This document shows positions 32,684 to 42,236 of a DNA stretch of 43,519 bases, piece by piece (position 1 is the stretch's first letter; each line of letters starts with the position of its first letter). The notes beneath the pieces are model-generated. The model made no database searches and was not told the origin of the DNA. It was given only the letters and a program-made list of their open reading frames with translations. Origin of the DNA: a virus; the IMG/VR virus record IMGVR_UViG_3300017971_000116, positions 1-43,519 of that record; one strand, given 5' to 3'. A program made the translations under genes and the position numbers.

Positions 32684-32992
32684 CTACTTGAGGCCCTTCA
32701 GCATCTCGCCGAACGCAGCGAGCTTCTTCTTGACCTGAGCCTTCCTCGACCGGATCACATCGAGTTCGTGCTCGAGCCTCGAGATCTTGTGCTCGATCGC
32801 GAGACGCTTGGTCGAGAAGAAGCCCTTCCTGCTGATCTCGGTGCGGCGGATCGTGTGCTCCCAGGACCAGCGCATCCCACCCCGCGCCTCGACCTGCTTG
32901 ACCTTCACGGTCTTGGGCGTCTCCTTGACGACCTCGTACTCCTCGATCTCATCGCCGTAGTCGGCGACCTTGTAGAGCCTATCTGAGGGCAT
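32684..32992 (-). CDS. Hypothetical beta-coil protein
   Basis: 102 residues from ATG 32992, overlapping the methyltransferase stop by 14 bases. The N-terminal half is beta-rich (YEVVKETPKTVKVKQVEAR) and the C-terminal half a Lys-rich helix or coil (ISRLEHELDVIRSRKAQVKK). Similar small phage proteins with a strand module and a terminal coil occur near replication genes, but the function is not established. Translational coupling links it to methyltransferase and helicase. Confidence 0.7.
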   Translation of the reverse strand: MPSDRLYKVADYGDEIEEYEVVKETPKTVKVKQVEARGGMRWSWEHTIRRTEISRKGFFSTKRLAIEHKISRLEHELDVIRSRKAQVKKKLAAFGEMLKGLK

Positions 32993-34175
32993 GGATGCGT
33001 TCTCCAATCCAGCGGACAACGGGCACGGGGAAGGCGTTCCCGAGCGCCCTGTACCTGGGTGCGTCCTTGGCCGGCTTGCCCCGGTAGGGCACGTCGGTCC
33101 ATCCTTCGGGGAACCCCTGGAGTCGCTCGCACTCCAGCGGGGTGAGGCGCCGGACGCCAGCGCAGGACTCGACCGCCGGGGAGACGATCGCATGGGTATC
33201 CCGGCTACCCGAGTCGAACTGGTTCAGCGTGTTTGCCTGCTCCGCCTCGGCCCACGTCTCGGCATCGTCCTTCGACGCTGCTCGGTGGACCTTGCGGAAG
33301 ACCGCCTGCACGTTGCGGAGGCGGAAGTTGTTACTCCCCTCCTGCGTGTAGGTGCCCTGCTCCTTGACGGTGAGCGGGTCGGCGACCTCCCGGTTGGTGA
33401 CGATCCTCGTCTCCTCCCGGTCCAGCCTGCCGTGGTGTGCGCTCAGGCAGTAGGAGACGTCGGGTGCCACGATGACGGGGGCCCCCTTGTTGGCGCCAGG
33501 GTCGTTGCCTCCGCTGACGGCGTTCAGAGCTCGGGAGACTTCGGGGACTCCTCCAGCCTGCTTGCCACCTCCCGTAGTGCCTCGTCGAGAACCGGAGGCA
33601 ATGCGCGCTCGCGCTTCGTCGCTCTCCGGAGGATCCCCGCGCAGGCCTTGGGGCTCAAAAAGTACCGCGGCGGCACGTCGCCAGTCTCCAAGGCATCCAA
33701 CAAGGAAGAGACGCTTGCGTCGTTGGGCCAGTCCGAAGTACTGAGCGTCCAGCACTCGCCAGGCGAACCCATACCCGAGTTCTTGAAGCGCCCCGATGAG
33801 GGCTCCAAAGCCCCGTCCTCGGTCTGTCGACAGAGCACCGGGGACGTTTTCCCAGACGAGCCATGTAGGCCGTAGGTCGCGAGCAAGTCGGAGATACTCA
33901 AGGAGGACTCGACCTCGGGGGTCCTCGAGTCCGCGCTGGAATCCGGCGACTGAGAAGGACTGGCAGGGGGTTCCTCCGACCAGAAGGTCAACTGCCCGAT
34001 CAGATCGGGATGGCGTGTACGCATGGACGTCTCCGATGTTGGGGCCGATCTTGTGGTGGTCGAGCACGGCGCAGGCGAAGGGCTCGATCTCGCTGACGAA
34101 CTTGGACTCCCAGCCGAGCTCCTGCCACGCCACCTCTGCGCCACCGATGCCTGTGCAGATAGAGGCGTACTTCAC
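32979..34175 (-). CDS. DNA (cytosine-5-)-methyltransferase
   Basis: 398 residues from GTG 34175 with AAGGAGG seven bases upstream. It transfers methyl from S-adenosylmethionine to C5 of cytosine. Motifs in order: I (SICTGIGGAEVAW, residues 5-17), IV with catalytic Cys71 (GGTPCQSFS), VI (ENV, 109-111), VIII (QRRKRLFLVG, 151-160), a target-recognition region about 190-320, IX (LTPLECERLQGFPEGW) and X (RALGNAFPVPVV). All motifs are intact, so it is likely active. No restriction enzyme partner is seen, which points to self-protection against host restriction or to epigenetic control. The recognised site cannot be read from sequence. Confidence 0.96.
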   Translation of the reverse strand: MKYASICTGIGGAEVAWQELGWESKFVSEIEPFACAVLDHHKIGPNIGDVHAYTPSRSDRAVDLLVGGTPCQSFSVAGFQRGLEDPRGRVLLEYLRLARDLRPTWLVWENVPGALSTDRGRGFGALIGALQELGYGFAWRVLDAQYFGLAQRRKRLFLVGCLGDWRRAAAVLFEPQGLRGDPPESDEARARIASGSRRGTTGGGKQAGGVPEVSRALNAVSGGNDPGANKGAPVIVAPDVSYCLSAHHGRLDREETRIVTNREVADPLTVKEQGTYTQEGSNNFRLRNVQAVFRKVHRAASKDDAETWAEAEQANTLNQFDSGSRDTHAIVSPAVESCAGVRRLTPLECERLQGFPEGWTDVPYRGKPAKDAPRYRALGNAFPVPVVRWIGERIHALR

Positions 34176-34178
34176 AGC

Positions 34179-34406
34179 CTAGCCCTCCTTGTCCTCGGAG
34201 AGGCTGCGGAAGATGGCGAACAGTTCCTGCGACCGACCCCGCCAGGCAGGGTGGGAAGCGACGTCGTTGGCGAGCACGCGCATCGCATCGTGCGTGACGC
34301 CGTGCTCCTTGATGATGGCCGGGACCGTCTTGGAGGCGTCGATGCGGCGCTTGCGCCGGTGCCACCAGTCGAGCAGCCCGTGCTTCTCTCTATCGCTCAG
34401 AGGCAT
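34179..34406 (-). CDS. Small helical protein, possible DNA binding
   Basis: 75 residues from ATG 34406, with AGGAGA six bases upstream. The protein is basic and helical (DWWHRRKRRIDASKTV), and contains a pattern TVPAIIKEHGVTHDAMRVLAND that could form a helix-turn-helix. It ends one codon before the methyltransferase gene. It begins just downstream of the structured RNA region 34424..34691, so its leader would be that RNA. No family recognised. Confidence 0.7.
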   Translation of the reverse strand: MPLSDREKHGLLDWWHRRKRRIDASKTVPAIIKEHGVTHDAMRVLANDVASHPAWRGRSQELFAIFRSLSEDKEG

Positions 34407-34423
34407 GGTGATCTCCTGAAAGG

Positions 34424-34542
34424 GCTGACGTGGAGGGCTGCGGGTTCCGACCCCGCCTGCGGTCTTGAGCGCCCTCACGCTCTATCGCACCAGCACAGTG
34501 GCCGGAATCGAACCGGCCTGCGCGCACCAGCGGCACGTCAGC
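34424..34542 (-). ncRNA. Multi-branched RNA with two T-arm-like hairpins
   Basis: On the - strand GCTGACGTG (34542..34534) pairs perfectly with CACGTCAGC (34432..34424), enclosing 101 bases. Inside are a T-arm-like hairpin GCCGG-TTCGATT-CCGGC (34517..34501) with a canonical tRNA T-loop and a second arm GCGGG-GTCGGAA-CCCGC (34456..34440). The second arm is flanked by GAGGGC/GCCCTC (34476..34471 with 34438..34433), which stacks on the outer stem. No complete cloverleaf can be drawn. The element occupies the leader of the gene starting at 34406. Function unknown. Confidence 0.5.
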
Positions 34543-34552
34543 AAGTCGTAGG

Positions 34553-34617
34553 TCGAGGCGCTCGGAATCGAACCGAGGCAGGGGGGAGTGAGTCCCCCGC
34601 GCCACCCGGCCACCTCG
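34553..34617 (-). tRNA. tRNA-like cloverleaf, degenerate
   Basis: A 64-base - strand segment folds as a cloverleaf. The acceptor is 7 bp (CGAGGTG 34617..34611 with CGCCTCG 34560..34554, one G-U), the D-arm is a shortened 3 bp with GGGT loop, and the anticodon arm is 5 bp GGGGG/CCCCC. The T-arm is canonical (CTCGG-TTCGATT-CCGAG). The 7-base anticodon loop ACTCACT lacks U33 in that register: its central triplet is TCA, while shifting by one gives CAC with a shortened stem. A73 is followed by CC but no CCA is encoded. It is about 10 bases shorter than a normal tRNA, so it may be a decayed tRNA or a tRNA mimic. Confidence 0.5.
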
Positions 34618-34625
34618 GTGAGGGT

Positions 34626-34691
34626 GCCCCGCCCCCAGGCGGGAAGCCGAACTCTTCCACGTCCAGACCATCTGGACGGCGGGGGCGGGGC
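34626..34691 (-). ncRNA. Three-way-junction RNA after the RecT-like gene
   Basis: An 11-bp perfect closing stem (GCCCCGCCCCC 34691..34681 with GGGGGCGGGGC 34636..34626, - strand) encloses two 17-base hairpins: GTCCAGA-TGG-TCTGGAC (34677..34661) and GGAAG-AGTTCGG-CTTCC (34658..34642). It starts seven bases after the RecT-like stop. It could be a terminator-like end for the recombination genes, or the first of the tRNA-like units in this stretch. No T-run follows. Confidence 0.5.
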
Positions 34692-34697
34692 GGATGA

Positions 34698-35813
34698 TCA
34701 CTTCTTGAGGTCGGCCTTGAAGGCGACCGCGGCCTTGGCGAGGTTGACCACGTAGACGCGGATCTCGTCCACGTCCTCGGTGACGTCCCAGTTGGGGCTC
34801 GCCTCCTGCGCGGCCTTGCGGGCCTTCAGGGCGATGGTGAGCTCGTCGCCGTCACGCCCCTCGGTGAACCAGTCCTCCAGTTCCGTGGCCTTGTCGCAGA
34901 GGGCGTCGAAGTCGAGGTCGGCGTACTTCTTCTCGATCGAGTCGTCACCCTTCTTGGTCGACGCCTTCTTGGTGCTCCGCTTCTTGCGCGTCCGCGTCTT
35001 CGGCGGGTCCTCCTCTTCCTTCTTCGGAGGCTCGGACTCCGACGCATCGGCGTCCGACGTAGAAGCCGTCGAGGACGAGTCCGTGGAGGTGGGCTCGCTG
35101 GACTCGCTGGCGTCCCTTGCGGAAGCGATACGGGACTGGAGGTCGCTCACGCCGTCCTCCAGCGCCTGCTCCCGGTTCGGGTCCGGGTCGGTCGTCGGCG
35201 GCGTCTCCTCGAAAGGGGTTTCGATCGCCGGCTCCTCCTCGGGCTCGGGCTCGGACTCGGGCGAAAGCTCGACCACGGGCGCCTCGCTCGGGGGCGCCAT
35301 CTTGGTCTTGACCCCGTCCTCGGGATCCTCCTCGAGACCCATCTCGTCGGGCGTGTAGAGGCCGTGGATCACGTCGGCGGCGAGCATCCGGTTGAGGATG
35401 GTGGTGGCCCGAGCGTAGAGCATCTGCTTCGGGTGCTTCTTCCAGTTCTGCTTGCCGGTGAGGCCCGCGAGCTTCGCGTCCTCCATGTCGTAGGTGACCT
35501 GCGTCCACTCCTCGTTGGGGTGGCGACGACCCTTGACGGTACACTTGTCGCGCTCGTAGGCGACGAGCACCACCTCGTACTGCGGGAGGGCCCGGCGGGT
35601 GACGGCCTGCAGGAGGCCCGCCATGATCGTCGGCTTGCCGTCGACCACCACGATGCCGCGGACGGCCTCGTAGGGGTTGATGCCGAGCAGGTGCCCCTGC
35701 GCCAGGCAGACCATGGTCTGCTCGTAGGTCATGCGAGAGGGGAGCAGCCCCGCCCGCTGGTGGATGGTGACGACCTGCTTCAGGTCGTTCCAGGGAATCA
35801 TCGCGTTCGGCAT
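34698..35813 (-). CDS. RecT-like single-strand annealing protein with long disordered extension
   Basis: 371 residues from ATG 35813, coupled to the exonuclease gene by TGATG. The core, residues 1-165, matches RecT-type annealing proteins: MTYEQTMVCLAQGHLLGINP, then IVVVDGKPTIMAGLLQAVTRR, a strand-turn CTVKGRR, QVTYDMEDAKLAGL, and the WKKHPKQMLYARATTILNRM helix. Residues 170-290 are low-complexity, first Glu/Pro-rich, then Ser/Thr-rich, then Lys/Arg-rich. The last 80 residues form a helical domain. The extension is far longer than in classical RecT. It should anneal complementary strands made by the exonuclease for recombination-dependent replication. Confidence 0.85.
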   Translation of the reverse strand: MPNAMIPWNDLKQVVTIHQRAGLLPSRMTYEQTMVCLAQGHLLGINPYEAVRGIVVVDGKPTIMAGLLQAVTRRALPQYEVVLVAYERDKCTVKGRRHPNEEWTQVTYDMEDAKLAGLTGKQNWKKHPKQMLYARATTILNRMLAADVIHGLYTPDEMGLEEDPEDGVKTKMAPPSEAPVVELSPESEPEPEEEPAIETPFEETPPTTDPDPNREQALEDGVSDLQSRIASARDASESSEPTSTDSSSTASTSDADASESEPPKKEEEDPPKTRTRKKRSTKKASTKKGDDSIEKKYADLDFDALCDKATELEDWFTEGRDGDELTIALKARKAAQEASPNWDVTEDVDEIRVYVVNLAKAAVAFKADLKK

Positions 35814-36643
35814 CAGAGGTTGTACTCCTTCTTGATCCAGCCGGGGAAGTCGGGCGAGACGACCGTCGGCCACCCCGGCCAACGGTTCTCCTCCACGCAC
35901 GTGGCGTAGAGGTCGAGCAGCGCACGCCACTTCTCGGTCTCCTTCATGAGGACGTCGGTGGGCACGGGGATGAGGGCGTTCTCGTAGGGACGGGAGTCGA
36001 CGACGGCGAGGAGCACGCCCATGGTGGGCGGCTCGATCGCGACGAGCCCTGCCTCGGCGAGCCAGCGCGCCGTGGCCTTGTAGAACGCGATCTGCGAGAA
36101 GTACCCCAGGTCGTAGGCCTGCCTGAGGAAGGCGCTGACCGAGGTCTTCACGGTCTTCTTGAGGTCGACGATGATGCGCTCGGCCCAGCACCACTTGTCG
36201 GGGCGGGAGCGCGTCATGACGCCGGTCACCGGGTCCTGCACGAGGATGGTGGACTCGATCGAGCCCTTGGCGTCGAGCAGCACGCGGGCGTCCGAGTTGC
36301 GCCAGACCGAGTCGCGGATCGCGAGAGCTCGGTTGGCGTCCTCCTTCTTGAGCACGATGGGGTACTGCCCCTCCATCTGCTCCTTGAGCGCCTTGCCAGC
36401 CTTGGTCCTGCCGTTGAAGTCCCCGGGCAGCACGCCGACGACGTCGTCGAAGCGCTCGGGCTCCAGCACGGCGGTGTGAATCGCCGAGCCGAGCACCATG
36501 GCGTCGGTCGACGGCGTCACGAAGCCCCGCTCGGCCAGGCACTTGGCGGGCGAGCGCTTCATGTTCTTCAGGTCGGAGTGGCTAACCGCATCGACGGCGA
36601 GGTACTCCTCCATCTTCATGCCTCGGTGGAGGCCTTGCTTCAT
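35813..36643 (-). CDS. RecE-like PD-(D/E)xK exonuclease
   Basis: 276 residues from ATG 36643, preceded by AGGAGG. The sequence carries the marks of the RecE/exodeoxyribonuclease VIII-like family: HSDLKNMKRSP near the start, LGSAIHTAVLEPERFDD, the metal-binding RSRPDKW and IVDLKKTVK strand (Asp, then Asp...Lys), and the helix YDLGYFSQIAFY with its Gln/Tyr pattern. It should degrade one strand of duplex DNA from ends, giving tails for the adjacent RecT-like protein. Pairing and order are those of phage RecET or Red systems. Stop and RecT start overlap by one base. Confidence 0.9.
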   Translation of the reverse strand: MKQGLHRGMKMEEYLAVDAVSHSDLKNMKRSPAKCLAERGFVTPSTDAMVLGSAIHTAVLEPERFDDVVGVLPGDFNGRTKAGKALKEQMEGQYPIVLKKEDANRALAIRDSVWRNSDARVLLDAKGSIESTILVQDPVTGVMTRSRPDKWCWAERIIVDLKKTVKTSVSAFLRQAYDLGYFSQIAFYKATARWLAEAGLVAIEPPTMGVLLAVVDSRPYENALIPVPTDVLMKETEKWRALLDLYATCVEENRWPGWPTVVSPDFPGWIKKEYNL

Positions 36644-41242: not shown

Positions 41243-41544
41243 GACGCGGCTCCCTTGATGGTGACGATGGAGGGGGTGGTACGGGCGGCGCTGTAGCGCT
41301 CGGCGCCGCCGATGGAGGGGTCGACCTTGCGGCTGCAGAGGTCGACGACGGGCCGATCGGCGGACCCCGCTACCTTACGGGCCCTGCCGTCGACGGTACG
41401 GGGTGGGAAGTGCAGGCGGATGGCGTCGGGGCCAAACTCGACGCTGTAGGGCTCACCATGCTTGATGGCGAGGGTTCGGCATGAGGCCCGATCCAACCAG
41501 ATACGGGCATTCCCCCGGTTCCGAGCCGTCTTGAGCGTGATCAT
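41239..41544 (-). CDS. Hypothetical early protein, basic
   Basis: 101 residues from ATG 41544, with GGGAG upstream. The product is a beta-rich, basic small protein (NARIWLDRASCRTLAIKHG, YSVEFGPDAIRLHF) like a swapped-hairpin or SH3-like module, followed by a Ser/Ala tail. It is coupled by ATGA to the gene downstream and overlaps the upstream one by four bases. Function unknown. Confidence 0.72.
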   Translation of the reverse strand: MITLKTARNRGNARIWLDRASCRTLAIKHGEPYSVEFGPDAIRLHFPPRTVDGRARKVAGSADRPVVDLCSRKVDPSIGGAERYSAARTTPSIVTIKGAAS

Positions 41545-42236
41545 CGGACCTTGCTCCCGTTGATGCCGTGGGCGGTAATGGCGATGGACCGAGCGGTAGT
41601 CGAGGCGCCGCGGCACAGTCGGCAGGCGCTGCACGAGACGCGGTCAGAGGGGCAGGGAACCTCCGCATCGGTGACGAGCTTCTCGCCGATGGGGGCTACG
41701 CGGAAGGTGCGCCAGCCCTTCCGGTGTGCTTCGTCCCGTTCGGCTTCCGAGTCGACGCTGGCCATACAGAGGTGGCGGAGGGAGGGACGGGAGCGCCACT
41801 GGTGGGTGTACCCAGTCCACCCCTTGGAGACCCGCGTCAGGGCCCGCAGCACGTCGGTGGGGACGGCTGCAGGATCGCCATAGGCGCCGAGCCGAACGAG
41901 CCGATCGCCGAAGGTGGCAGGCCAATGGATGGAGGGAAGGCGAGGGTAGCGCCCACGGTGGAAGGCTCGGTAGATGGACAGCGGCGCCTTGGCGACGTCG
42001 ACGTAACAGGTACGGGGCGAGTCGCCCGAGCCCCGGTGGGGGCAGTCCCCGCAGATGGCCGAGTCAGCGCCGGACCGGATGGCGTCAAGCGGGCTACGGT
42101 CGGTCCTCAGGATCCAAGTCTGGACCATGGGACCAGTCTTCCGGTTGGTCGTCTTGAGGGTGGCGATCATGACGATCGGTGAGCCGTCAAGACGGGACCG
42201 ACCCTCCCACAGCACGAAGCCACGGGGGCGACTCAC
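41541..42236 (-). CDS. Conserved Cys-rich phage protein of unknown function
   Basis: 231 residues from GTG 42236, which shares GTGA with the stop of the 37-residue gene upstream. I recognise a widespread phage pattern: KTGPMVQTWILRTDRSP, then an AIRSGADSAICGDCPHRG segment, TCYVDVAKAPLSIYRAF and HRGRYP. A second cysteine cluster (CPSDRVSCSACRLC) lies near the end. The spacing suggests two metal or iron-sulfur sites. Its function is not established. It is the first large product of the early leftward transcript, so a host-takeover or replication-control role is plausible. Confidence 0.82.
   Translation of the reverse strand: MSRPRGFVLWEGRSRLDGSPIVMIATLKTTNRKTGPMVQTWILRTDRSPLDAIRSGADSAICGDCPHRGSGDSPRTCYVDVAKAPLSIYRAFHRGRYPRLPSIHWPATFGDRLVRLGAYGDPAAVPTDVLRALTRVSKGWTGYTHQWRSRPSLRHLCMASVDSEAERDEAHRKGWRTFRVAPIGEKLVTDAEVPCPSDRVSCSACRLCRGASTTARSIAITAHGINGSKVR

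Follow-up and report, generated by a model that had tools for sequence, protein, structure and literature searches.

Putative tRNA-mimic RNA modules in a phage recombination operon and a mini-tRNA family that recurs between phage genes

What does a phage encode in a gap between its recombination genes that bears the marks of tRNA and lacks a gene for a decoding tRNA? The gap in question, 291 bases long (34407..34697, - strand), lies in the IMG/VR record IMGVR_UViG_3300017971_000116, which we analysed over its whole length of 43,519 bases (67% GC) and refer to here as the window. Rightward genes of the window include those for the terminase large subunit and the major head protein, and its leftward genes include those for a primase, an endonuclease, a helicase, a C5 methyltransferase, a small ORF, RecT and an exonuclease VIII-like protein. 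The gap sits inside this leftward operon. On one side it is opened by the stop codon (34698..34700) of a gene for a recT-like ssDNA annealing protein (34698..35825, - strand; PHROG 561, E = 5e-21; Pfam RecT, 24.1 bits) and on the other it ends at ATG 34406 of the small ORF (34179..34406, - strand), which encodes 75 amino acids of no known family and has a Shine-Dalgarno-like AGGAG before its start. Downstream follows the gene for the C5-cytosine DNA methyltransferase (32979..34175, - strand; Pfam DNA_methylase, 186 bits), for which we found distant homologues only, the best with 46% identity overall. Near relatives of this phage were absent from the phage, viral-contig and bacterial-genome collections that we searched, using the DNA against the phages, the RecT, small-ORF, terminase and capsid proteins against the viral contigs, and the primase against the bacterial genomes; BLAST of the two tRNA-like units described below against the phages likewise gave short, weak matches only. 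Elsewhere in the window, 41541..42236 (- strand) encodes a strongly conserved protein whose function is not known (phrog_2554, E = 5e-75) and which is about 50% identical to Caulobacter and Mycobacterium phage proteins, although the genome is otherwise without close relatives.

An initial annotation, made from the sequence alone, had described the gap as non-coding, and this description is borne out by the recT stop and the ATG that bound it and by the GC content by codon position, which departs in the gap from the pattern of the neighbouring genes. In addition, an ORF on the + strand that spans the gap (34023..34697) is without the codon pattern of real genes. Read along the - strand, the gap consists of a three-way-junction hairpin (34691..34626), a tRNA-like unit 1 (34617..34551) and a second unit, unit 2 (34542..34424). 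On folding of the entire 34407..34697 interval, which the annotation had proposed as a check, the gap as a whole barely beats its shuffles (z -1.5; 13 of 200 shuffles equally good). The strongest single fold is the GC-rich hairpin just past the recT stop (34626..34691, - strand), where the predicted three-way junction closed by 11 bp is confirmed at -44.2 kcal/mol, with a z of -4.2 on the - strand and none of 200 shuffles equally good. This hairpin is not tRNA-like, and the + strand is equally stable (z = -5.0). Its core is a perfect 8-bp inverted repeat of the GTCCAGA-TGG-TCTGGAC type. No T run follows the hairpin and no terminator-type site was found at 34626..34691; it could be a transcript-end or processing structure.

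The tRNA-like character of the gap is seen in two strict T-arms, CTCGGTTCGATTCCGAG (34577..34561) in unit 1 and GCCGGTTCGATTCCGGC (34517..34501) in unit 2, which share the core GGTTCGATTCC and stand 60 bases apart. None of 100 dinucleotide-shuffled versions of the full window had two strict T-arms on the same strand at a distance of 150 bases or less. Three T-arm-like hairpins spaced by 60 and 61 bases had been claimed here, and while this holds for the two strict T-arms, the third (34456..34440) has the loop GTCGGAA, which fails the T-loop consensus. Rather than a tandem array of three, the gap contains two T-arm units of different architectures plus an unrelated strong hairpin.

Unit 1 (34551..34617, - strand) is a tRNA-like cloverleaf with no usable anticodon. 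Its 7-bp acceptor stem, CGAGGTG/CGCCTCG with one G-U pair, is formed by 34617..34611 with 34560..34554 and is followed by A-CC, so that the 3' end, A-CC-T, comes near to CCA. The canonical T-arm CTCGG-TTCGATT-CCGAG (34561..34577, - strand) was detected in a strict T-arm scan and scores 17 bits, for the T-arm alone, with the covariance model introduced below. From the sequence and the ARAGORN relaxed drawing we further recognise a mini D-arm, GCC-GGGT-GGC, of 3 bp and 10 bases (34601..34610, - strand), similar to the short arms that other phage tRNAs have, and an anticodon-type arm of 5 bp, GGGGG-ACTCACT-CCCCC (34582..34598, - strand). An anticodon loop with U33 and a purine at position 37 is lacking: the loop can be read as ACTCACT, with C33 and C37, or as CTCACTC, with the anticodon CAC, an A-C closing mismatch and T37, and neither register is normal. 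ARAGORN draws unit 1 in relaxed mode only and reports 0 genes by default, and the Rfam tRNA models give no match to it at gathering score. Among the 180 hairpins of the window with 5 bp and a 7-base loop, however, only that of unit 1 is accompanied, at the expected positions, by a 7-bp acceptor stem and an anticodon-type arm of 5 bp. The 64-base cloverleaf with a canonical T-arm that had been proposed is thus present and unique, but it is not the minimum-energy fold, having -31.4 kcal/mol versus -34.8 kcal/mol for an alternative that is 3.4 kcal/mol better. The acceptor stem pairs with a probability of 0.94-1.0 and the T-arm with 0.17, and the folding of the unit is modest compared with shuffles (z -1.5). 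A scan showed that minimal D-arms like that of unit 1 also exist in further phage genes resembling tRNAs, among them genes of Gly(TCC) type in four large contigs. The Gly(TCC)-type tRNA genes in L104, L122, L140 and L160, which encode CCA, have some 14 bases in their D-arm region and are missed by ARAGORN even in relaxed mode. They share with unit 1 a D-arm region of 10-14 bases with GGCCGGGTGGC, but have a normal anticodon loop and an encoded CCA, whereas unit 1 has neither.

Unit 2 (34424..34542, - strand) is built differently. It is a 119-base RNA closed by a 9-bp stem, GCTGACGTG/CACGTCAGC (34542..34534 with 34432..34424; closing-stem probabilities 0.91-1.0), whose 5' strand is followed by CCGC, the box TGGTGCG, CGCAG, the canonical T-arm (34501..34517, - strand; strict T-arm scan), CACTGTGC, a second TGGTGCG, two hairpins and the 3' strand of the stem. 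The first box (34523..34529, - strand), which is D-loop-like, precedes the T-arm by 5 bases, and the second (34486..34492, - strand) lies 8 bases past it; GCTGGTGCG occurs in the window only at these two sites. The hairpins are GAGCGT-GAGG-GCGCTC (34467..34482, - strand; pairing probability ~0.85) and GCGGG-GTCGGAA-CCCGC (34440..34456, - strand), the latter being the supposed third T-arm. A 119-base unit closed by 9 bp had been claimed with two T-arm-like hairpins; the unit exists, its closing stem and T-arm pairing with probabilities of 0.9-1.0, but the loop of the second hairpin is not canonical. Folding of unit 2 as a whole is again modest relative to shuffles (z -2.1). Since this genome should contain about 0.3 such helices (9 bp, loop of 60-120 bases) in every 291 bases, the stem alone is weak evidence; for a stem anchored 4 bases before the box, the shuffle p is 0.004, a post hoc value. 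The chance of finding the box within 3-12 bases of a given T-arm is about 0.001. The 3' end of unit 2 lies 17 bases before the next ATG.

The combination of TGGTGCG box and T-arm recurs widely between the genes of other phages. Using this motif of unit 2, which was picked after the window had been seen, we found matches in at least 119 stretches of viral contigs. Full 5-bp T-stems are present in 96 of the 118 viral matches listed versus 30 of the 119 bacterial matches listed, the pattern used for the bacterial-genome control being one base longer than the viral one, and several of the bacterial full-T-stem matches are tRNA-Leu variable arms. Moreover, among the matches listed and after removal of ARAGORN tRNAs, an acceptor-like helix surrounds box and T-arm in 39 of 52 distinct viral cases compared with 17 when the flanks are swapped, while the bacterial cases show no excess (7 versus 6). 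From the matches listed, 27 sequences, selected for having the acceptor-like helix and required to pair in the T-stem, align as covarying, anticodon-less RNAs in the order acceptor, TGGTGCG, T-arm, acceptor. Their covariation score is 0.64 against 0.18 for shuffled and at most 0.26 for slid alignments, and 90 cells are changed on both sides versus 34; TGGTGCG and GGTTCGANTCC are constant in this alignment by the search pattern, and the acceptor-stem share of the score is partly built in because pairing was a criterion of selection. The comparison with swapped flanks puts the family to a fairer test. This covariation pertains to the mini-tRNA family, whose defining motif unit 2 shares. Rfam gives no match at gathering score for seven loci with such mini-tRNA modules. 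A covarying mini-tRNA of tailed phages for which Rfam appears to have no model would add a new family to the non-coding RNAs. For example, one member lies between gp38 and the capsid gene of cyanophage Syn5 and another between gp88 and gp87 of mycobacteriophage Phantastic. Phantastic also has a second mini-tRNA-like hairpin (L548:~867-914; T-arm at record ~49001, - strand), GGATCGG...GAGGG-TTCGATG-CCCTT-CCGATCC, with a 7-bp stem and then a T run.

How does unit 2 relate to this family? Model R1, the covariance model of the mini-tRNA family, recognises its box and T-arm with 35 bits (E = 6e-9), but this match is inflated and not independent, as unit 2 itself supplied the motif by which the family had been gathered, and the same non-independence applies to the position of the box 3-7 bases before a canonical T-arm. 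Like the family members, unit 2 has the box before a canonical T-arm, has no anticodon arm and is intergenic. In addition, the 9-bp stem of unit 2 ends 4 bases before its box, and in the family the corresponding distance for the 5' acceptor strand is 0-5 bases. The acceptor stem of the family, however, is 5-7 bp long and flush with the T-arm, whereas the 9-bp stem of unit 2 closes with a 3' strand that is 68 bases farther downstream; four of the six model pairs are mismatched in unit 2, and no flush acceptor helix was found around its box and T-arm. Since the flush acceptor fails and the 9-bp stem is displaced, unit 2 resembles a mini-tRNA with an inserted domain, and we do not file it as a proven member. 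Judged by its sequence, it would be of the same general kind as the mini-tRNA that recurs in the intergenic gaps of unrelated phages, and it may function like one into which a domain has been inserted.

We consider it probable that the gap contains genuine RNA elements of tRNA origin that do not serve in decoding. Our best explanation, which we hold with somewhat less than even confidence, is that these are tRNA-mimic RNA modules and not translating tRNAs. The gap would be transcribed leftward with the recombination operon to give two such modules, unit 1 with an acceptor, a T-arm and a near-CCA end but with a shrunken D-arm and no decoding anticodon loop, and unit 2 as an anticodon-less module in which the GG of the D-loop-like TGGTGCG box may contact the loop of the T-arm beside it, as in a tRNA elbow. 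Excision could be carried out by host tRNA-processing enzymes, and the modules may then act in trans as decoys or competitors directed at host proteins that recognise the elbow or the acceptor of tRNA. The most likely use for an acceptor and an elbow without an anticodon would be to occupy the proteins that read those parts, and the tRNA-like domain of bacterial YrlA has been proposed to act as such an inhibitor (PMC7790460). A specific trans-decoy role is nevertheless a tentative proposal. The same caution applies to the wider picture, possible rather than probable, of phage-specific mini-tRNAs of about 45 bases that are widespread between genes and act in trans on host tRNA-binding enzymes, the window holding a divergent member with an inserted domain beside an anticodon-defective mimic. 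Two reports describe phage tRNAs as evading tRNA-targeting defences (PMC10264068, PMC11555353), and the mini-tRNA could bear on how phages handle tRNA-cutting defences.

The first reading of this DNA, as miniature or decayed tRNAs or a tRNA mimic, points in the right direction, apart from the tandem of three: the features derived from tRNA are genuine, and T-arms at close spacing are found again at many phage loci. Pairs of T-arm cores with too little room for two full tRNAs occur in at least 120 stretches of viral contigs; most T-stems in those listed are complete, and tRNAs are present at many of these loci. They comprise tRNAs minus the anticodon arm, RNAs with a T-arm at the place of the D-arm and, by eye, tmRNA-like 3' ends. 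In L203, L255, L198, L257, L295, L260, L200 and L182, a T-arm replaces the D-arm and is accompanied by a second T-arm and an acceptor stem of 6-7 bp, with L198 and L255 sharing a common module; these RNAs appear to represent one more type made by phages and not yet described. Such loci also bear on decay, that is, on the view that the gap is the relic of a short phage tRNA cluster in which unit 1 has lost bases of its D-loop and anticodon loop and unit 2 everything but the T-arm. In 47 of the 125 pairs listed, the first T-arm belongs to a called tRNA and the second does not, leaving a partial unit with an orphan T-arm after a tRNA, and L211 and L266 are clearly tRNAs that have lost part of the anticodon arm. 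Plain decay has to be reckoned with above all for unit 1, which has no usable anticodon loop. Decay should be random, whereas the acceptor, the T-stem and both T-loops are intact; moreover, the TGGTGCG box is common to a covarying family, and ARAGORN finds no intact tRNA gene in the window. We regard decay of the gap as fairly unlikely.

A serious alternative to tRNA-mimic modules, which we nevertheless hold to be unlikely, is that the tRNA-like folds work in cis and have no function as free RNA, either by marking the operon mRNA for cutting of the RNase P or RNase Z type or by controlling translation of the next ORF. The gap does lie between co-directional genes, with unit 2 ending close to the next ATG, and the Syn5 and Phantastic members are also intergenic. 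RNase P cuts phage RNAs and polycistronic mRNAs (PMC11143913), and one report describes control of translation by the yjdF riboswitch through a tRNA-like fold (PMC9142559). On the other hand, the neighbouring genes vary among phages (recT; capsid; genes of unknown function), so that no shared gene is regulated, and Rfam gives no riboswitch match. A cis cutting signal could also be the first step of the same pathway as the proposed trans role.

Anticodon-less tRNA mimics are known from tmRNA, bacterial Y RNAs and the RNA ends of plant viruses. At gathering and relaxed thresholds, Rfam returned nothing at gathering score in the window; a weak 17.7-bit match to tRNA-Sec was judged to be chance. 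Neither the bacterial Y RNAs nor the tmRNAs that Rfam knows include the gap RNA. It shares with tmRNA a tRNA-like domain without an anticodon arm, but has no tag-coding region, and ARAGORN and Rfam find no tmRNA in the window. The likeness to a Y RNA of the YrlA type, which would bind an Rsr/Ro60 protein, is closer, as YrlA also joins a basal stem formed from its two ends to a T-arm/D-arm module within 90-150 bases and has no anticodon arm (PMC8394870). We rejected this identity, which we consider very improbable, on RF02553 and TROVE: the window has no RF02553 match at E up to 1, and a TROVE/Ro60 gene is absent from the window and from 45 other viral records with T-arm units, outside which a host Rsr could exist. 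The Rsr-side motif GAAUGC of the YrlA model is also absent. In Variovorax (L543:1400-1623), a true YrlA (76 bits) follows directly after a second Y RNA-like RNA that bears TGGTGCG and a T-arm, an adjacency that speaks for a link to Y RNAs; TROVE gave no match in that Variovorax genome. A YrlA match of 26.9 bits in the phage contig L416 is false, as it spans two tandem tRNAs. T4 RNA C (rnaC, 139 bases) comes close in being a phage-encoded stable RNA with a canonical T-arm and no tRNA cloverleaf, but it lies in a tRNA cluster, has no TGGTGCG box and differs in size and fold. T4 RNA D has no T-arm, and the phi80 M3 RNA, an RNase P substrate (NC_021190 36229..36288), has neither a T-loop motif nor a T-arm.

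Phage attachment sites often hold tRNA T-arms, and long helices are not rare in this genome, whose gap barely outfolds its shuffles, but chance folds of GC-rich sequence or an attachment site with part of a host tRNA gene are highly improbable, since shuffling does not produce the close pair of canonical T-arms, no integrase is found among the proteins scanned (a subset of the ORFs), and neither T-arm precedes an acceptor strand ending in CCA.

Finally, the mini-tRNA possibly bears on the right-end region of mycobacteriophages L5 and D29, for which an abundant and toxic non-coding RNA has been reported (PMC5712189). A paper mentions the gene 63-64 region of D29 as a candidate for a non-coding RNA, and the record searched shows no strict T-arm there. 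A canonical T-arm does lie just upstream of D29 gene 89, near the non-coding right end (L551:4588-4604; NC_001900 47987..48003, - strand), and is followed by CTACCC, which is able to pair with an upstream GGGTAG; as far as the sequence can tell, the abundant RNA of D29 may end in a tRNA-like structure.
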